Of a stretch of 64,000 nucleotides of DNA, positions 1,818 through 46,094 are shown piece by piece (the first letter of the stretch is position 1; each line of letters begins with the position of its first letter). The position numbers and the translations under genes were made by a program. The stretch is from an uncultured Planctomycetota bacterium (GTDB lineage Bacteria; Planctomycetota; Phycisphaerae; UBA1845; UTPLA1), in the NCBI GenBank assembly GCA_900696465.1, contig CAADGE010000035.1, positions 62,001 through 126,000 of the forward strand. The letters are read 5' to 3'. The notes under the pieces are model-generated. The model had not been told where the DNA came from. It worked only from the letters and a program-made list of their open reading frames with translations, and searched no databases.

Positions 1818-4800
1818 TCAGCGCGCGTCGTCGGGACGCGAAGCGGTCAGACCGATCAGCCGATTGCCGTCCATCAGCAGCAGAGAATGATCGCGAAGTA
1901 TCATCCCCCCGAAGGAATCGATTGGTTCCGTGAGCAGCTCGCCGGAATCGGTCATCGGCAGTTCCGTACCGGAGGCAAGGTCGTAGCGGCGAATGCGATA
2001 GCGCTTACCCTGCTCGCGGGGATCGGCCTCCTGCTCAGTCGCGGCGCGTCGATCGCTCTCCACTGCGGCACGGCGCGAGCGCGATGCGTCCAACGGAGCC
2101 ACGGTTACTACGCTTTCGGCGGAAAACCGCGGCGCCTGTGCCTTCAGGCAGCCCGGCGCGGCCGCCTCCCAGCGTGTGCGACCGTCGGCGGCGTCAATGC
2201 AGCTCAGCCGATCAGCACCGGCGGCGTAGATCGCACCTTGCACGCGCTGCGCCCAGATACCCTGATCGGCTCGTGTGCCGATCGGTTGGCTTCTCCAGAG
2301 GATGCGACCGTCGTCGAGATCATACGCCTGAATTCTCCTCGCATCGGTGCTGACGTACAGCGCGTCGGCATCGGCCTGCAAGGTGGATAGATGGAAGTGT
2401 TCAGGCGTGGTCACCCGCCAAAGCGCCTTTCCGTTGGTAACGTCCATGCACTGAATCGAGGTGGAGCGGACCAGCAGCAGACGATCCGCCCGCGGGAGCA
2501 GCAGGGCCTGCAGGGGCCAGGAATCCGCCGGCTGGATCGTCCGCAGATGTCGACCGTCGCGGACATCGAGTACGGCGACGCGCAGCTCGACGCCCTGAGA
2601 AAGGGCCACGCAGACATGGCGCTGGTCGGCGACGATCGGCGCCGCCGGCGAAGAGCCGAGGTCCGCGCTCCAGCGCAATGTTCCATCGAGGGTGGACAGG
2701 CACACGACACGGCCGCGATCACTCGCTGCCAGGAACAGCTCGCCGGCGATGCATTGGTGCAACCACGATGGCACCATCTCCGGCTCCAGCATGGGGTCGT
2801 CCGGGGGCGTCTCTCCGAATTCCCATGCGAGCTGGCCGCTGGTTCGGGTAAGTGCAAACAACCGTGTCACGGTGGCAAGGTAGTACCGAGAGGCATCCAT
2901 TCCCACGAGCACCGGATGGGAAAGTTTCATCGCGAACGGCCGCGGCCATCGTGAACGGCCGGTAGCCGGGTTGCGACAATCGAGCTGGCCGCCGCTGACG
3001 GTGAGCGCGTCGTCCCAGCCGGAGCCGGGAAGCTCCGGCTGCAGCGGTTCGAGAATCGCGACACGATCGGGAAAGAGCCGGTCATACGCGGGAGAAAGTG
3101 GACCGGTGAGAATCGCGCGCGGCGGGTGCACATGCGGCTGGGCCGCCAGCAGACGCCGGCGCCGGTCTTCGAAGCGATCGTCAGGACGGCCGGCGGACGG
3201 TGCGTAGTCGGGATAGTCTCGCGCACCGCGTTCGAGCCAGTCCACGGCGTCCGCGGTTCGACCATCGGCGAGAAGTGCCTCCACGTATTCATTGATCCAT
3301 CTCGGACGATCTGTATGGCGGCGATCGGCAAGGGCCCTGCGATAATACCTCGAGGCTTCGCGGTGATGACCGGCCTCCTGCATCTTTCGGGCGTAAAAGG
3401 CGGCGGCCTCGGTGGACATGCTGCTGTTTGGAAACATCTCGGAGACTTCGAGCAACGCGGACGGGTCAGTAAGTCCACGGGCGATCTGCAATCGATCGCG
3501 GGCTTTGCTATCGATGTCGGCATAGATGTCCGCGCCGTGGCGGCGTATCAACATACCGATGCAAGCGGCGGCGAAACGGCCGGCCTTGGTCGTGTCGGTC
3601 GAAGTATCAACCGCGAGCCAGATGGTGGGATCGCCGGGCATCGAAGGCGGCGCCTCGTCCGGAATGGAATCAACGGAAAGCGCGTCAATGGAATCCGTTC
3701 GTCGGAGCTGGACGTCCCGCAGCCCCGGATCGGAAAGAACCTGCTGATACGCCTCGACGGCGGCGCGAACATCGTCTGCCAGAATGAAGGCCCTTGCCAA
3801 TCGCAGGCGCTGCAGGACTTTCTCCTCTGTGGTGGCGGCACAATGCCCCGCCATCTGCAGAAGCCGGACTGCGACGTCGATCGCGCGCGGCTCACGATCG
3901 GAGGATGCAGGTGTTGAAGCGTCACGGGTGATCAGCGATTCCGCGAAATGGGTCAGGCGCAGCAGCATTCTGCGGCGCGCGTCGGGGTCGGTCATTCGGG
4001 CGAAGCCGCCGAGACGACGGACGGCTTCGTCAACGGCCTCGAGTCCGCGAGTGGCCTGACCGGACTCAAAGGAGAGTTCTGCGAGATTCATGGCCACCCA
4101 CGGATCATCCTGGCGTTCGATCAGGCGTCGCGCCATGCGGTCGAAGGCGTCGTCGCGACTGACCAGTCCGTAGAGCAGTCGCGGCGCCGAGATGAGAATC
4201 TGGTCCTTGAGCGGGAGGACATGACCGGCGTGCTCGGTCGGCCAGCGATAGACCTGCGCACGGCCGCCATCGAGTGGGTATTTCAGCAGGCCGCGATCGG
4301 TGGGAACGAGCAGGCCGGTATCGGTCAGTGCACCGCGTCCGAGCAATTGCCCCATCTCGAGCGGTCGCTGCCAGACGATTCGCCCCTCGGCGAGGTCGTA
4401 GCACACGACGCGCGATCCGACGAGGTAGAGCAGGTCGCCATCGACGCCGAGCATCGTCTCCGGAGCTTCGAGCGTCCGCGAGGCCACCTTGCGGATGAGT
4501 CGCCCGTCATCCTGATGGAGCATCAGCAAATCGGACGAGTCGAGCGGCATGCAGATGACCGCATCCCGCCAGCAGACGACGGGCGAATAGTTCCACGAAC
4601 GAACCGGTCGGCCGCCACGATCCGGCCAGGACTGTTCGGAGTCCGGTTCGAGAGCTGATTCGTAAGTATGAATCCACTCCACGTGATTTGTGATCAAAGA
4701 GACGGCGGCAATCGAGCCGAGATTCGACTGAACAAAGATCCGGTCGGAGTCCGCCGCCGGGTGGCTGACCGTGACCCGGCGGTATCCATAGCTACCGGTT

Positions 4801-39881: not shown

Positions 39882-42800
39882 TTACTTCTCTTTAAGTTCG
39901 AGCGCGCCGCGCCAGTCGTCGTCCGGCGGGAACGTCTTGAATTCCTGACAGGCGTCGATGTAGCGACTGGCGCCGGCGTCGTCGAACCGTCGGGCGAGCA
40001 TCCGCGTGAAGTGGACGATGCATTCGTCCCAGCGACGCTGCTTGTAGAGTTCGACGCCGTGCTCGAAGCGCTCGATGTATTCGCGCTGCTCGGGCGTCAG
40101 CGTACCTTTTCGGCCGACGACTTCGTACACGGGAATGGTCTGTGCCTTTCCCTTGACCTGCAATTCGGCCAGGTAGCGAAACTCAAATGCATCGCGCACA
40201 ACTTCGCGCGTCGGCCCGCTGACCAGAATCGAGGTGCCGAATACTTTGTTGGCCGGCTCGAGTCGAGCGGCGAGGTTCACCACATCACCAATCACGGTGT
40301 AATCGGCCTTGATTTCGGAACCCATATCGCCGTTCATCGCCATGCCGGTGGCCAGGCCGATCCGCATCTGCAAGGCGTCGAAGATGCGGGCGGCAGGATC
40401 GCCGCGGCGCTCTTGCTTGAGCTTTTCGAGTTCCTCCAGGCCGATGAGCGATGCTTCAACGGCGGCGCGGGCATGTTCCGGCATCGGATCGACGCTGGCA
40501 TTGAAGAATGCCATGATGCCGTCGCCCATGAACTTGTTGAGCAGGCCGCGCTGATTCCAGATGACCTGACTCATGCGATGCAGGTAAGTGTTGAGTACGC
40601 GCTGGATGAGTTCGGGGTCTTCCGCTTCCGTGAGGGTGGTAAAGCCCTTGAGATCCGAAAAATAGCAGGTGACCTCGCGGGTCTGAACGGTCTTGAAAAC
40701 TTGCGCGGCCTGCGGATTTTCGGCGATCCGCGCCGCAATGGCCGGCGAGGTGTATTGGCCAAGCTGCTTGGCAAACAGTCGCCGCTCGCGTTCGGCCGTT
40801 AGCTGGCGGAAAAGGGTGACGAAGGCCCAGGTAAGAAACATGCAGACCAGCGGAGCAGCCAGCGCCGCCCAGACATCCATTCGCTCGAAGAGCACTTCGC
40901 AGTTGAACAGCAGATACGCGGCGAGCAGACCGATCGTGGCGGTCAGAGCCCATCGAGGCGGCTGCGTGCTGGTGAGGAAGCTGACGATCGCGCCGGCTGC
41001 CAGGCAGATGAGCACGCCGACCCAGGCGGGCGCGATGCGGATCAGCCGATCCTGCAGGATCGCATTGAGCACATGCGCATGACACATGACACCGTTGGTG
41101 CGTGGATCGATGGGCGTGGTGACGATGTCGCCCTGTGCCGTGGCGGCAAAGCCGAGGAAGACGAACTTGCCCGCCAGATGATCGTTGAGTTCCTGCTTTG
41201 TCCGATCGATCATGGCCTGCATGGATTCGTTCGCACGGCGGCGCGCCGAAAGCTGTTCGTCGATGATCTTCTTCGCTGACCGGAAGCGCCTGGCATCAGC
41301 GGCGAGCTTTGGATCGGCATCGATCTCTACCTGCGGTATTTCAGCGAATTCCCGGCAAGTCAGCTCGATGGTGTCGATGGCCTGGGATTCAATGGCTTCG
41401 ATCTCGTTGAGCAGTTTCGCCAGGCGATCTTCCATGGCTCGTCGATCTTCGGGAGTGCCGGTTGACATCAGTCGGGCGAGGCGGAGTTCCTGCTCAAGCT
41501 TTACCTGTTCTCCGACCAGTCGTAGGTAATGTGCATCGGCGGTGTGGGTTTCAGGACCGGACTCCGCCCCCTCTCGCGATTCGACGCTAAACTCGCCCTT
41601 GGCGACCGTGACCAGATCGGCCAGCAGGTACTTCATGGAAACGTCGTTGTCCCGGCGCTGCCGGCGTGCGTCGACGATGCTCATCAGCTTGGCGGCCGAC
41701 AGGTGCGGCATGTCCTTGCCCTCGCGCCATCGCGGGGCCGTACCACTCCAGTGGATGACCATCGCTCCGTCGCGATCCAGCGGCAACCGTCGCGGCTGAT
41801 CTTTGTTCGAGGTCAGCAGCAGATCCGATCCGTCCAGCGCAAGCCCGGAGAGGTTCAAGCCAAGTGTGTGGATGGCGGCTGACAGGCCGAGGTGGGGGAG
41901 TACGCCTTGCTCGACATCAATCAGCACGGGAACCCGTCGCACCGAGCCGTCGATATCGGGGCGGAAGTTGACGGCGGCGATGTCCATCGCGGCCTCTGCC
42001 AGAGGCGCCAGCAGCGGCGCGACGTTTTCCGCACGGGGCAGTCGCGCCATCGCCTCCGCCTTTGCCGGGTACAGTGACTTCAGCAGGATTTCAAGCGCCT
42101 GCTGACGATTGATCGCCATCCACAGGTCGCGGCGGTCGGCCGTGCGGCGACCGCTTTCCTCACCGAGGACTGCATCGAGAATCTGTTCGGGGTCTGGCTT
42201 GTGTCCGTTTTCGAGCAGGGTCCTCACGCGTCGTCGGGCCGCTTCGGTTTTGGCTCCGGCCAGGATGCGCAGGACCTCGTCTGTCGGCGCGGCCAGCCGG
42301 TCGGCCAGCTCGTGTTCGTTCAGTGTGAAATTCGAGATGAGCAAACGAGTGGCCCGCTCGCGCAGCGCCAGCCGGTGGACGGTCTCGACATCTTCAGTGT
42401 GTTCAGTCTCGTCGAGTGCCATGACGGCGTCATCGGTGCTCGCATCCGGATGGCGGTCGAAGTAGTCGTACAGCTGTCGACTCAGTGGGAGCGGATGTCC
42501 GGGGAGTCGGATATCCAGTTGCGTTGACATGATCACGCAACCGGCGCGGCGAATGGCCTCGGCCAGCTCAAGATCACCGTAAAGGAGGTTGGCCTCGGAA
42601 AGCTCCCCGACGATTTCAACCTTCTCGCCGGGCAATGCATCAAGACGCGGATCGGCCAGTTGCAGCTTTTCGGGCTCGGAGAAGAGGAAATCGACGAGGA
42701 TCATTTCCGGGTTGAATTCGGCAATCGTGCCGATCAGGTCGGCCATCTGGCTTCGCGGCCAGGGCCACCGACCGATCCGGTCGAGAGAGCCGTCGTCGAT

Positions 42801-42986
42801 ATCGACGTGAACAATTCGCGGGTCGGCCGGCAGGGTGTTGAAGTGCCGCATTCGCCAGTCGAAGGACATGAGTTCGAGCCGTGGCTCGTTATCGCGCGCG
42901 AAGAAAAAGACGGCTGTTCCCGCCGCAATGGCGAGACCCAGGAGAAAACCTTGCAATTGTTGAAGCCGTCGGCGGTTTATTAGCAT
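39882..42986 (-). CDS. CHASE2-domain class III adenylate/guanylate cyclase
   Basis: 1,034 residues. One N-terminal membrane helix (about 12-30), a large extracytoplasmic CHASE2 region (about 32-645) with the typical SFDWRMRHFNTLPADPRIVHVDIDD start, then three or so membrane helices (about 650-745), then a class III cyclase domain. Metal-binding aspartates lie in CYFSDLKGFT (about 776) and NKFMGDGIMAFF (about 817); TVIGDVVNLAARLE near 895 is the transition-state block. A short helical TPR-like tail ends the protein. The CHASE2 region is about twice the usual length because of helical inserts around 150-330 and a coiled coil around 490-560. Likely makes cAMP in response to an external signal. 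Stands alone. Confidence 0.9.
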   Translation of the reverse strand: MLINRRRLQQLQGFLLGLAIAAGTAVFFFARDNEPRLELMSFDWRMRHFNTLPADPRIVHVDIDDGSLDRIGRWPWPRSQMADLIGTIAEFNPEMILVDFLFSEPEKLQLADPRLDALPGEKVEIVGELSEANLLYGDLELAEAIRRAGCVIMSTQLDIRLPGHPLPLSRQLYDYFDRHPDASTDDAVMALDETEHTEDVETVHRLALRERATRLLISNFTLNEHELADRLAAPTDEVLRILAGAKTEAARRRVRTLLENGHKPDPEQILDAVLGEESGRRTADRRDLWMAINRQQALEILLKSLYPAKAEAMARLPRAENVAPLLAPLAEAAMDIAAVNFRPDIDGSVRRVPVLIDVEQGVLPHLGLSAAIHTLGLNLSGLALDGSDLLLTSNKDQPRRLPLDRDGAMVIHWSGTAPRWREGKDMPHLSAAKLMSIVDARRQRRDNDVSMKYLLADLVTVAKGEFSVESREGAESGPETHTADAHYLRLVGEQVKLEQELRLARLMSTGTPEDRRAMEDRLAKLLNEIEAIESQAIDTIELTCREFAEIPQVEIDADPKLAADARRFRSAKKIIDEQLSARRRANESMQAMIDRTKQELNDHLAGKFVFLGFAATAQGDIVTTPIDPRTNGVMCHAHVLNAILQDRLIRIAPAWVGVLICLAAGAIVSFLTSTQPPRWALTATIGLLAAYLLFNCEVLFERMDVWAALAAPLVCMFLTWAFVTLFRQLTAERERRLFAKQLGQYTSPAIAARIAENPQAAQVFKTVQTREVTCYFSDLKGFTTLTEAEDPELIQRVLNTYLHRMSQVIWNQRGLLNKFMGDGIMAFFNASVDPMPEHARAAVEASLIGLEELEKLKQERRGDPAARIFDALQMRIGLATGMAMNGDMGSEIKADYTVIGDVVNLAARLEPANKVFGTSILVSGPTREVVRDAFEFRYLAELQVKGKAQTIPVYEVVGRKGTLTPEQREYIERFEHGVELYKQRRWDECIVHFTRMLARRFDDAGASRYIDACQEFKTFPPDDDWRGALELKEK

Positions 42987-43372
42987 GGCACGCTGGCTGA
43001 TAGGTTAGCGTTAAACACACTGCCAGAAAACCATGCGGAAGTTCGTATCTGAGACACGCTGCGCGTTCGATGTGACATGGATATAAAGCGATTTACCGGC
43101 AGGCACGTCCTGTTCGATGAGACCGATCACGCGCGATTGATGCAGCGGGTGCCAGAAATCAGCATGCGAGTTACACGGGCTGCCAGTTCTCAAATTCCTG
43201 ATGCAATTGGCTTGACACTCCTGAAAGCTGAGATATGTTGTATTATATCGAATAGGCACTCCGCAAAGGGCACGCACACCACGAAAGGAGGGCCGGGCCA
43301 ACCAGCTAATCTCGCACAACCTGCCTGAGTCGCTCTGCAAATGGGGGTTACCCTTTTCGCAAGAGGTGGGCC
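42987..43372. other. AT-rich divergent intergenic region
   Basis: 386 bases between the cyclase (minus) and the Cys-rich lipoprotein (plus), clearly AT-richer than the rest of the window; 43201-43260 is about 38% GC by count. It holds a TTGACA box (43212) with a -10-like TATGTT and an AAGGAGG at about 43285 that has no following start codon in reach. No gene recognised. Confidence 0.5.
43212..43239 (+). promoter_or_regulatory. Candidate promoter for Cys-rich lipoprotein pair
   Basis: Perfect TTGACA (43212-43217), 16-nt spacer, TATGTT (43234-43239, four of six matches); a TATTAT at 43241-43246 is too far for normal spacing. Predicted leader about 125 nt. Confidence 0.45.
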
Positions 43373-43648
43373 ATGATCAAATCGCTTAAGCTACTGATGT
43401 TTTGTTGCCTGGTGTTCTGCCTGGGCAGCGTTTCGTCCTGCCCCCAACCCGGTTGTGATGGTTCGTGCGCTTCACCGGCGGACCTGGACGACTGCCGCTT
43501 CTGTTGCAATTCGCATGCCTTATGTATTCAATGCTGCCGCAATAACTATCAGGGCGGTGATCTGACGACTTGCGAGAACTACTGCAACTTCATCACTGAA
43601 GAGGTGCTTGTCAATGTTGGTAATCCTGTGCCGCACTCTGGCATGTGA
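43373..43648 (+). CDS. Small cysteine-rich lipoprotein
   Basis: 91 residues. Signal peptide KLLMFCCLVFCLG then GSVSSC, where Cys23 is the likely lipid-bearing residue. The mature part of 69 residues has 11 cysteines (23, 28, 32, 41, 44, 45, 51, 54, 55, 67, 71), including two CC pairs, giving CxxCC and CxxCC motifs. Possible roles are a disulfide-bonded knot or metal-binding protein; no family recognised. AGAGGTGG sits just upstream of the ATG. Codon and base use are AT-richer than most neighbours. The thioredoxin-fold gene starts 18 nt after its stop with a strong ribosome site, so the two are one unit. Confidence 0.65.
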   Translation: MIKSLKLLMFCCLVFCLGSVSSCPQPGCDGSCASPADLDDCRFCCNSHALCIQCCRNNYQGGDLTTCENYCNFITEEVLVNVGNPVPHSGM

Positions 43649-43666
43649 GGCGGGGAGGATCATATC

Positions 43667-44755
43667 ATGTTCACACGTATCTACCTCCAATTACCCCTTC
43701 TGTTTACTGTCGTTCAGGCACCGGAGTTAACAGCCGCCAAGTGGTTCAATTTCGATTCGCGTGACCTGCGTGAGAGCAAGACTCGGGTTGTGATGTTCGT
43801 CGACGCCTCGTCTTCATCGCAGATTGATCAGGCGATATCGCTCCACAAGAAGCTCGGTCCTTCCTGCTCATTCATGATGATCACGCCGGAGCAGCCGAAT
43901 CGTGTCGAGCGCATCCTCCGCAAGCATCGGATTCGCTTTCCCGTTGGTGCCGGGTCTCGAGCCCATGTTGCTTTCGGCGTCAAAACATTTCCCAGCGTTT
44001 TGCTCTGCAAGCCCGGCTCCTCGGAAATCACGATCACGAATCCGGACGACTTTGTCTTGCCCGCGACGAACTTGCCCGTCGAAGTGCAAGCCGCGATTGA
44101 TCGCATGTATGCGGAAGATTCGATGGCCCACTATTCGCTGGACTCGTTGCAAAAGCTGGCTGAAACCTTCGGCCGAAGCGATCCCGCAGGATTCCTGCAA
44201 GTTTGCGATTATCTGCTCTCGCTGGAGCCGCCCACCGGCCAGCGCGAGCCGACGTTGCAGGATCGGATACGATGGACAGGGCAGATTTACCATCTCCGAC
44301 ATCTGGTTGATCCTCAGATAAAGGAGAAACAATCGGTTGATACTCCCTTGATACATGCCATGAAGTCCATCGAGCGCGACACGATACAGTCCGTTCTGCC
44401 CGTCAACCTGAATGCCGACCTTGCGACGAAATCAGAGGAGCAGATTGTCGCCGATTACACGGCTCAGCTATCAACGGAGGCGATCCCCTCGCTGGTGCGA
44501 CAATCGTACCTGACGGCGCTTGCGAAACTCTCGAAAGATCAGCAGCGAGGAGTCCTTCTGCGCATACTTCCGAAGGAGACCGACCCCGCGCTGCGGCAGA
44601 TGATTGTGTGCCGGATTCACGACGCTTGCAGGCCGGGCGATCGAGGGGCCATCGACGCATTGCAACGCGAACTGGAAACCGATCAGAACTATCGATGGTC
44701 GCGACCTGCGATCGAAGAAGTGCTGAATTATCTTCAGTCCGTGCCCGAGGAATAG
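43667..44755 (+). CDS. Secreted thioredoxin-fold protein without the CxxC
   Basis: 362 residues; GGAGG 8 nt before the ATG. A signal-like N-terminus (IYLQLPLLFTVVQAPELTA) is followed by a TlpA/thioredoxin-like domain at about 25-115: VVMFVDASSSSQIDQ, FMMITPEQPN, FGVKTFPSVLLC with the cis-proline. Where redox thioredoxins have CxxC this one has SSSS, so it cannot do dithiol exchange. The C-terminal 240 residues are helical (HEAT- or TPR-like: VRQSYLTALAKLSKDQQRGV, DPALRQMIVCRIHDACR) with no known family. Base composition about 50% GC, unlike most of the window. Genetic linkage to the Cys-rich lipoprotein suggests they act together. Confidence 0.62.
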   Translation: MFTRIYLQLPLLFTVVQAPELTAAKWFNFDSRDLRESKTRVVMFVDASSSSQIDQAISLHKKLGPSCSFMMITPEQPNRVERILRKHRIRFPVGAGSRAHVAFGVKTFPSVLLCKPGSSEITITNPDDFVLPATNLPVEVQAAIDRMYAEDSMAHYSLDSLQKLAETFGRSDPAGFLQVCDYLLSLEPPTGQREPTLQDRIRWTGQIYHLRHLVDPQIKEKQSVDTPLIHAMKSIERDTIQSVLPVNLNADLATKSEEQIVADYTAQLSTEAIPSLVRQSYLTALAKLSKDQQRGVLLRILPKETDPALRQMIVCRIHDACRPGDRGAIDALQRELETDQNYRWSRPAIEEVLNYLQSVPEE

Positions 44756-44786
44756 TCGATCAGGGCCGGATCGTGGGCTCGGGCCG

Positions 44787-46094
44787 TCAATCGTAGAGCT
44801 TTTTCACCGTCGATCCGGGATAGTACGCGGCGAGGATGTCTCGGTAGTTCATGCCGCGGCGGGCCTTGGTCTCCATGCCATACTGGCAAAGGCCCATGCC
44901 GTGGCCAAAACCCTTGCCATCCTTGAAGACGAATCCGTCCTTCGTCGTCTCGATCTGGAAGTTGGTCGACTTGAGCACGCGGCTGCCGATGGACAGGCGA
45001 AAATCCTCTCCAACGAGCACCTCGCGCTGGCCGCCGGAGCCGACGATCTCGATGCTGATGACCCGTCCATCCGTCGTGCGCTTGCGGGGTTTAAGTTCCG
45101 TCACCGTGCCGATCTTTCGGATCGTAGGATAGCGCGCCGTCAGGCGCTTGGTGACTTCGGCTCGGGAGAGCGTCTCCGGCCCCCACCGATAGCGCGGTGC
45201 AACGTAACAATCGTTGCACGCCACGCCGCCGACCAGCGGGGCCACGGGCGGATCATTCGGCTTGACGTTGTTCACGTGCTGCGAGAGGCCGCCGCAACAG
45301 GAGGAGTAGTAGGTGCAGAAGATATCTTCCGACTTGCCGTCGTGATAGACGGCGACCTCGCCGCGCGTCTCCTGCACCGCGCGATCGCTGACCGGGTCTT
45401 CCATGGTGACGCCGTTGTAGACCTGGCTGCCTTCGTCATCGTAAACGTCGAAGGTCGTACCGGCGGGCTTTTCGCGCTTGCAGTAGAGCGCGTAGGTCCG
45501 CGCCGCGACGCACTGGGCCTTGAACGATTCAAAGTGAAAATAACGCGGCAGTTCACCTCGAAGCACGCCGCGCAGGTAGGACTCGATGTCCAGATGGTTC
45601 GTGAAGACGACGCCATCGCCCTGCCGCTGGATACGCATCGCGCCGCGGTAAGTCTTATCCGCCAGGACGAGCGCTGCATCTCGCGAGGGCGTCAACAGGA
45701 TGTCATCGGAGGGGATCAGCTTCTCGCCGAGTTGAATGCCTGCCGATGAGGCCGGTCGCACCGTGACGCCTGACAGCGGGGACTGGGTATCGCCGAACTG
45801 GGTGCCGGTGCGCGTCTCCGTGAGGGTAAAGGGGGCGGTGACGGAGAGCGGTTCCGACGGCCGTGGTCGTCGCCCCAGAAGGCGCACGCGGATCTGACGA
45901 TCGATCACGACCGGCTCAACGGGTTTTTCTTCCGGTTCGCGCCGCCAGATCGAGGACTCAGACAGGCCGAGGCAGCCGACAAAGAGCAGGGTGAAGGCCC
46001 CGAGGATGAGACTCAGGGTGCAGGCCGGTCCCGCTCGGCGCAGCCGGAGTGCAAAGTCGTGCAGTCGGGTGTGATGTCGGGAACGCTGTGTCAG
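44787..46094 (-). CDS. SpoIID/LytB-domain lipoprotein, probable CTG start
   Basis: About 435 residues. The C-terminal 330 residues are a SpoIID domain (YLRGVLRGELPRYFHFESFKAQ, ARTYALYCKRE, YYSSCCGGLS, GFGHGMGLCQYGM), a peptidoglycan lytic or amidase-enhancing domain. The longest frame with an ATG/GTG starts at the GTG at 45908, but that would cut off a perfect export signal encoded upstream: basic n-region, hydrophobic segment, lipobox LFVGC. The upstream frame has no ATG, GTG or TTG before a stop at 46110; it has a CTG at 46094 preceded by AAGGAG at 8 nt. I therefore propose a CTG start. The domain contains several cysteines in CxDC and CC pairs. Confidence 0.75.
   Translation of the reverse strand: MTQRSRHHTRLHDFALRLRRAGPACTLSLILGAFTLLFVGCLGLSESSIWRREPEEKPVEPVVIDRQIRVRLLGRRPRPSEPLSVTAPFTLTETRTGTQFGDTQSPLSGVTVRPASSAGIQLGEKLIPSDDILLTPSRDAALVLADKTYRGAMRIQRQGDGVVFTNHLDIESYLRGVLRGELPRYFHFESFKAQCVAARTYALYCKREKPAGTTFDVYDDEGSQVYNGVTMEDPVSDRAVQETRGEVAVYHDGKSEDIFCTYYSSCCGGLSQHVNNVKPNDPPVAPLVGGVACNDCYVAPRYRWGPETLSRAEVTKRLTARYPTIRKIGTVTELKPRKRTTDGRVISIEIVGSGGQREVLVGEDFRLSIGSRVLKSTNFQIETTKDGFVFKDGKGFGHGMGLCQYGMETKARRGMNYRDILAAYYPGSTVKKLYD

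Follow-up and report, generated by a model that had tools for sequence, protein, structure and literature searches.

TlpA/ResA-like oxidoreductases, represented here by 3eyt, 3lor and ResA (1st9), are exported proteins that combine a thioredoxin (Trx) fold with a cis-proline, and P2, the larger of the two proteins described below, is like them in all three respects. The alpha-hairpinins, as described in PMC7191063, have the motif C-x3-C-xn-C-x3-C, with spacers that exclude Cys, and their bonds join Cys1 to Cys4 and Cys2 to Cys3. The smaller protein, P1, carries this motif twice, at C51/C55...C67/C71 and at C28/C32...C41/C45, and so shares the C-x3-C...C-x3-C spacing of plant vicilin-buried peptides such as 6o3q.

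The genes for P1 and P2 lie on the same strand of the window, by which we mean the whole 64,000-nucleotide stretch of DNA that was analysed, with 18 nt from the P1 stop codon to the P2 start codon (Table 1). The original prediction was correct in its coordinates, frames and spacing for the two genes, and also in the strong ribosome sites that it assigned to them, both of which are purine-rich stretches. The promoter-like sequence 5' of P1 is the single match to its consensus found there, with 1.1 expected from shuffled sequences. As originally noted, the unit is lower in GC (0.52 for P1 and 0.56 for P2) than the adjoining genes (0.615-0.628). We found that this composition is a property of the family, with GC under that of the flanks for P1 at 15/17 loci and for P2 at 16/21 loci (the window locus and G056:C179 being outside this locus set). 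Because low GC recurs with this gene pair across genomes, it is not, taken alone, a sign of transfer at the window.

Table 1. Positions of the features of the P1/P2 locus, of its flanks and of related elements in other genomes (locus, genome and contig handles precede the positions where these lie outside the window)
Feature	Position	Strand	Basis
P1, a small exported protein (91 aa) rich in Cys	43373..43648	+	sequence, profiles
P2: exported Trx-fold and HEAT-like protein, 362 aa, predicted non-redox	43667..44755	+	
Ribosome site of P1, AAGAGGTGGG, purine-rich	43361..43370	+	read from sequence
Ribosome site of P2, GGGGAGGAT, purine-rich	43652..43660	+	read from sequence
Promoter-like TTGACA-16-TATGTT 5' of P1	43212..43239	+	consensus match only
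P2 Trx-fold domain, residues 25-147	43739..44107	+	AlphaFold2 secondary structure; 3lor/3eyt/ResA matches
Ser run S48-S51 in place of a redox motif (S49-Q52 by CxxC register)	43808..43819	+	
Cis-proline P109, conserved	43991..43993	+	alignment, 23/23 members
P2 helical HEAT-like domain, residues 158-357	44138..44737	+	AlphaFold2, Pfam, profile, VIA-align
Flank: CHASE2 and guanylate cyclase protein	39882..42986	-	Pfam
Flank: SpoIID-domain protein	44787..45908	-	Pfam
1800-base stretch between the SpoIID and CHASE2-cyclase genes, absent in G113 and G098	42987..44786	.	
ORFs with VKOR and Thioredoxin_4 matches	G000:C5:73784-74905 and G000:C35:134110-135303		
(TCCCT)n tracts	L159:7112-7169; L160:7462-7514; L161:1-30; L162:2-31; L132:4297-4336; L174:2258-2292; L199:1396-1445 and 3804-3883; L218:6055-6129; L244 (four tracts)		
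Members of a second CxxC-less Trx-fold family	L017, L018, L020, L024, L026, L029, L032, L090, L091, L092, L097		

We first searched 114 genomes of the order to which the window's genome belongs with each single sequence, which gave P2-like matches in 29 genomes and P1-like matches in 10, and from these first matches we built a P1 family profile (A1, 15 rows) and a P2 family profile (A2, 18 rows). With the P2 profile, we found full-length P2 at 21 complete loci and as one fragment, in 14 of the 114 genomes (the fragment, at a contig end in G072, lies outside the 21, and the G074 protein is counted as complete, although its last residues are missing at a contig end). There was no full-length P2 in the remaining 283 of the 397 genomes of the class, nor was there one beyond the window's own genome among 343 genomes of the phylum, where the other profile matches had E values of 7.8e-20 or weaker and were confined to the Trx part. 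The P1 profile matched 24 places in 17 of the 114 order genomes, and 18 of these places, among them all of the 17 best, lie directly 5' of P2. Seen from the other side, P1 is immediately upstream on the same strand at 18 of the 21 complete P2 loci, the exceptions being G021:C7, G014:C54 and G027:C61, and two divergent P2 genes of 518 and 544 residues (G049 and G077) have a Cys-rich ORF just 5'. The two genes are thus linked in relatives, as the original prediction needed them to be.

No shared families were seen at matching neighbor positions of the pair loci, suggesting that the pair is a stand-alone unit. The named records of family members (15 loci) are uncultured Phycisphaerae and Planctomycetota assemblies. 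G080 holds three divergent pairs and G056 holds four. No paralogue of P1 was found in the genome that carries the window (E 0.3 or worse for all further matches), and the single-sequence search with P2 gave no other match there; one extra weak match, to the helical part, was obtained with the P2 family profile (E 5e-4). At one of the loci without P1 (L103, G021:C7), the P2 gene lies 3' of genes for an ECF-sigma-like protein and a ChrR-like cupin, as read from their translations. At L057 (G008:C25), a P1-like gene is followed by an exported ORF of 424 aa without a P2 profile or Pfam match, and the product of this ORF is a possible alternative partner of the P1-like protein.

An AlphaFold2 model of P2, made with 17 sequences, has a mean pLDDT of 83.9. 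With VIA-align, which only re-ranks matches already obtained with Foldseek, the Trx part of P2 matched 3lor (Z 12.2, rmsd 2.9, 121 aligned) and 3eyt (Z 12.1, rmsd 3.3, 123 aligned), and P2 matched ResA at Z 11; the Foldseek E value for P2 and 3eyt was 4.8e-5. Structure prediction therefore supports the TlpA-like fold that had been proposed from the sequence. The description of the redox site as “SSSS instead of CxxC” was right in substance and off by one in register, since the positions that correspond to CxxC are S49-S50-S51-Q52. All 23 members of the P2 family are without Cys at these positions and all 23 have the cis-proline, the retention of which had been correctly predicted, and we therefore rejected the idea that the loss of CxxC is a change specific to the window locus. 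L103 does contain C-F-D-C, but it is located in the preceding strand, off the CxxC register. TlpA-like relatives from this order and phylum, by contrast, carry CGPC or CPPC. As a Trx fold without the CxxC Cys, P2 should not carry out thiol chemistry, and the absence of CxxC with retention of the cis-proline fits the non-redox partner role that was originally suggested for it.

For the rest of P2, the original description was a helical stretch of 240 residues without a known family. The region is indeed helical, but it consists of HEAT-like repeats: Pfam HEAT_2 matched 12/18 P2 members (best, 2.4e-6; the window P2, P0002, scored 14.2 against a cut-off of 27.7), the P2 profile matched alphaRep chains with an E value of 2.3e-13, and residues 256-362 matched an Integrator-complex chain (VIA-align Z 10.1, rmsd 2.9, 101 aligned). 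When we computed charges for 16 P1 and 9 P2 members, the Trx part of P2 had a net positive and the C-terminal part a net negative charge in 9/9 of the P2 proteins examined; mature P1 was net negative in 10/16, zero in 4/16 and positive in 2/16. The P2 encoded at L123:1860-3191 on the minus strand (G080:C139) ends, as read from its translation, in a transmembrane helix and a coiled coil, suggesting that this protein may be membrane anchored via its C-terminal helix. A second Trx-fold family without CxxC also occurs in the order; its members have a long C-terminal region and keep the cis-proline, and a conserved H-x-G-G, for example WHKGGE, mostly takes the place of CxxC.

The 91 residues of P1 include a signal sequence and 14 Cys, 11 of which fall in the 69 residues from C23 onward, the number that had been given for the mature protein. 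Ten of these 11 are core Cys (C28, C32, C41, C44, C45, C51, C54, C55, C67 and C71), arranged as four C-x3-C pairs plus C44 and C54, and the additional one, C23, sits at a possible lipobox, VSSC (residues 20-23). Among 14 P1 members scanned, the window P1 (P0001) is the only one with a plausible lipobox, and the sole other match to the pattern among the remaining 13, in L010, is located past the signal peptide. Thus, the designation of P1 as a lipoprotein is not supported as a family trait.

The Cys of P1 are lost in pairs, which points to disulfides. C51 and C71 are jointly missing in 2/17 P1 members (L007 and L008, which belong to different families) and never singly, and C28 and C44 are both missing in the divergent L057 and L094, which are outside the 17-member count (this count also leaves out the truncated L006b, as well as L084, which dropped out at profile alignment). 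Counting against the proposed pairing, C28 alone is missing in L011, where extra Cys are nearby; C54 alone is missing in L010, so the proposed C45-C54 link is unsupported. Some P1 members have odd Cys totals (9, 11 or 13), which means that not every Cys can be paired within one chain. In the genome that carries the window, two ORFs (536 and 672 residues) each matched both VKOR and Thioredoxin_4, and from these matches both ORFs are likely to be VKOR-DsbA fusions; with them, extracytoplasmic disulfide formation is probably possible in this organism. One of the two lies ~8 kb past the end of the window. Because of the paired loss of Cys and the presence of VKOR/DsbA-type oxidizing machinery, disulfides are the more likely of the two options in the original “disulfide-rich or metal-binding”.

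The predicted model of P1 is weak (pLDDT 62.6). The best match in the P1 profile search was an alpha-hairpinin, with a nonsignificant E value of 0.19, and an alpha-hairpinin was also the best Foldseek match of this low-confidence model (E 1.0, again nonsignificant; VIA-align Z 4.4, rmsd 4.1, 44 residues). Foldseek also matched the model to the copper storage protein Csp1, very weakly (E 5.7). P1 contains CCNSHALC, which fits CCxxHxxC, a pattern that we take to be a PLA2-like PROSITE motif; we regard this as chance because the His varies among relatives.

Judged from its sequences, the P1/P2 family is fast diverging. No other family row exceeds 26 percent identity to the window P2, whose branch is long, unplaced and nearest to members of another family; one G056 pair (family f8) nests with strong support in the f3 clade. 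Distances between P1 proteins follow those between P2 proteins (r 0.67 for 18 pairs; 0/5000 permutations as high), also when a near-duplicate and a truncated pair (G056c and G075a) are left out (r 0.48 for 16 pairs; 1/5000 permutations as high). This correlation is what would be expected of a co-inherited or co-evolving pair, and linked inheritance alone would suffice to produce it. For one close orthologous pair, the dN/dS of P2 was ~0.2.

At the window, the SpoIID and CHASE2-cyclase genes are 1800 bases apart, compared with 87 bases in the congener G113 and ~45 in G098 (in G112, G102 and G108, the cyclase gene was not found within the stretch around SpoIID). Since the flanking genes adjoin each other in a congener, the pair was either inserted here or lost elsewhere, and its absence from sister lineages may come from loss rather than from gain at the window. 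No clear breakpoint and no direct repeats were found at the junction of the 1800-base stretch, and insertion repeats were rejected on this and on an alignment score of 25 for the empty-site spacer against the insert (shuffled sequences: mean, 23.4; maximum, 34). A phage or plasmid origin was likewise set aside, tblastn with P0002 giving no match in phages or plasmids and the family DNA pattern giving none in IMG/VR. The empty site in the congener, the patchy distribution and the one branch that crosses families thus lend some weight to the suggestion that the pair was acquired by transfer.

Within one planctomycete order, P1 and P2 are conserved as a linked pair and have diversified together. 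We propose, giving the proposal about an even chance of being right, that the two genes are inherited as a single unit and encode a matched exported pair in which P2 is the dedicated non-redox binding partner of P1. The three P2 loci without P1, and the different ORF 3' of the P1-like gene in G008, count against this proposal, as does the weakness of the P1 model. P1 would be oxidized outside the cytoplasm by VKOR/DsbA-type machinery and would become a helical mini-protein of two disulfide-stapled hairpins, one with the bonds C28-C44 and C32-C41 and the other with C51-C71 and C55-C67, joined by C45-C54. P2 would hold P1 noncovalently, such that the mostly acidic P1 rests against a basic Trx domain, close to the cis-proline groove, and the acidic HEAT arm would be a scaffold or a second docking surface. 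The complex would act in the periplasm or at the cell surface, where its role may be recognition of or interaction with other cells or ligands and not redox chemistry.

In a serious though rather unlikely alternative, which takes up the original suggestion of a chaperone, P2 would be a folding helper (holdase) dedicated to P1, shaping it during disulfide formation by general oxidases and then releasing it. A Trx fold that keeps the cis-proline without CxxC would suit such a helper, as would a substrate with ten core Cys, and the G080:C139 protein (L123), with its terminal transmembrane helix and coiled coil, looks like a membrane-held one; however, 3/21 P2 genes have no P1, and the matched diversification of P1 and P2 exceeds the need of a general helper. 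The observation that P2 is sometimes without its partner, and P1 scarcely ever, would instead be in keeping with P1 as a secreted, bacteriocin-like antagonistic mini-protein and P2 as a periplasmic immunity protein that neutralizes P1 by binding. Patchy presence (14/114 order genomes), the presence of more than one divergent pair in some genomes (3 in G080 and 4 in G056) and very rapid divergence (best identity of the window P2, 26 percent) agree with this second alternative, which we nevertheless consider rather unlikely, though serious: P1 is mostly acidic, unlike the cationic antimicrobial hairpinins, there is no dedicated exporter and no recurring neighbor gene, and PADLOC gave no meaningful match. 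The same PADLOC result, obtained with representatives, led us to reject a defense system.

That P1 is a copper or zinc binding protein loaded or docked by P2 strikes us as highly improbable, despite the high Cys density of P1 and the very weak Foldseek match to Csp1 (E 5.7), because its Cys are lost in pairs, because it is exported via a signal peptide from a cell that encodes oxidizing machinery and because no metal-transport gene was present among the few neighbors scanned.

In genus g58 (G055 and G056), a pure (TCCCT)n tract immediately precedes the ribosome site at 5/6 P1 genes; no such tract was seen at the window locus or at the other pair loci examined. Two near-identical orthologues differ in tract length, with 11 and 8 full (TCCCT) units, respectively. 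When we counted repeat arrays (4-9-base units, at least 4 copies) in 100 stretches of G055 (1.71 Mb), TCCCT was the commonest repeat, accounting for 8/18 arrays. The start of a Cys-rich ORF (60-220 residues with at least 10 Cys) lies at most 70 bases past 6/8 of these TCCCT tracts, compared with 56/20000 random positions and 0/10 other repeats (both strands), and at the remaining two the Cys-rich ORF is the second gene. Most tracts are preceded by a similar promoter-leader, consisting of a TTGACC-17-TATATT-like sequence and then CGGGCAGGGCGGAAGGC. The latter element is present in 9/11 aligned leaders, being missing in L160 and L244_8847, and L244_6295 has the element without the promoter part. 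Several tract cassettes have a larger gene 3', which at L174 encodes a P2-like Trx protein (G055:C4, E 1.6e-7).

As a check on switching by masking of the SD, we folded the leaders with 0-18 tract units and found that SD accessibility drops with length in L159, L199b and L132, and slightly in L160, with no useful trend in L218, L199a and L244a; near natural tract lengths, accessibility is flat. The tracts and the shared leader of g58 suggest switchable expression of secreted Cys-rich genes. Clusters of different secreted Cys-rich proteins, with 12-17 Cys, are present at L244:1-11200 and L199:1-4000 (minus), and in these clusters several Cys-rich genes are followed by proteins of ~400-600 residues that are alike by eye. 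One (TCCCT)n tract precedes a pseudopilin-like gene. We tentatively suggest, giving the idea clearly less than even weight, that the window pair is one type in a larger, fast-diversifying repertoire of cassettes for a Cys-rich protein and its partner, which in g58 would be a (TCCCT)n-driven contingency-gene system of free-living planctomycetes. A tract at the ribosome site would be hypermutable, so that cells would switch or tune which Cys-rich protein is made, and the repertoire might serve in antagonism, in recognition between cells, or in evading predators or phages.

There is no named family for P1 or P2 in Pfam or NCBIfam, and neither single sequence reached a Pfam cut-off. In the literature excerpts that we searched, we found neither a P1/P2 pair of this type nor comparable repeats in planctomycetes. 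Each part belongs to a known kind, and the combination of P1 and P2 appears to be new. Two anonymous genes thereby become a testable protein pair that is unnamed in Pfam, NCBIfam and PADLOC (representatives), P2 offers a natural case of a Trx fold without its chemistry that has apparently been turned into a binding module for a Cys-rich partner, and uncultured planctomycetes may possess a contingency-gene repertoire.

Set beside the known systems, P2 differs from the TlpA/ResA-like oxidoreductases in having CxxC in 0/23 members, a long HEAT-like C-terminal domain and a partner, P1. It shares a helical repeat signature with HEAT repeat and alphaRep proteins, but its arm is a short array of divergent sequence, joined to a Trx domain. 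The co-loss of C51 and C71 in P1 corresponds to the Cys1-Cys4 pair of the alpha-hairpinins as given in PMC7191063, whereas C44 and C54 lie inside the spacers that, according to the same source, exclude Cys. P1 is further set apart from the alpha-hairpinins by being bacterial, by its ten core Cys and by being mostly acidic, and the similarity is nonsignificant (E 0.19 and 1.0). With Csp-type copper storage proteins, whose four-helix bundle is lined with Cys, P1 has in common Cys-rich helices, at a match of only E 5.7 to Csp1. The G055/G056 loci, finally, are like the contingency loci of Haemophilus and Neisseria, as portrayed in literature excerpts, in having a pure pentanucleotide tract of variable length by the ribosome site of genes for surface or secreted proteins, and they differ from those loci in belonging to environmental planctomycetes, in their shared promoter-leader and in their secreted Cys-rich products.
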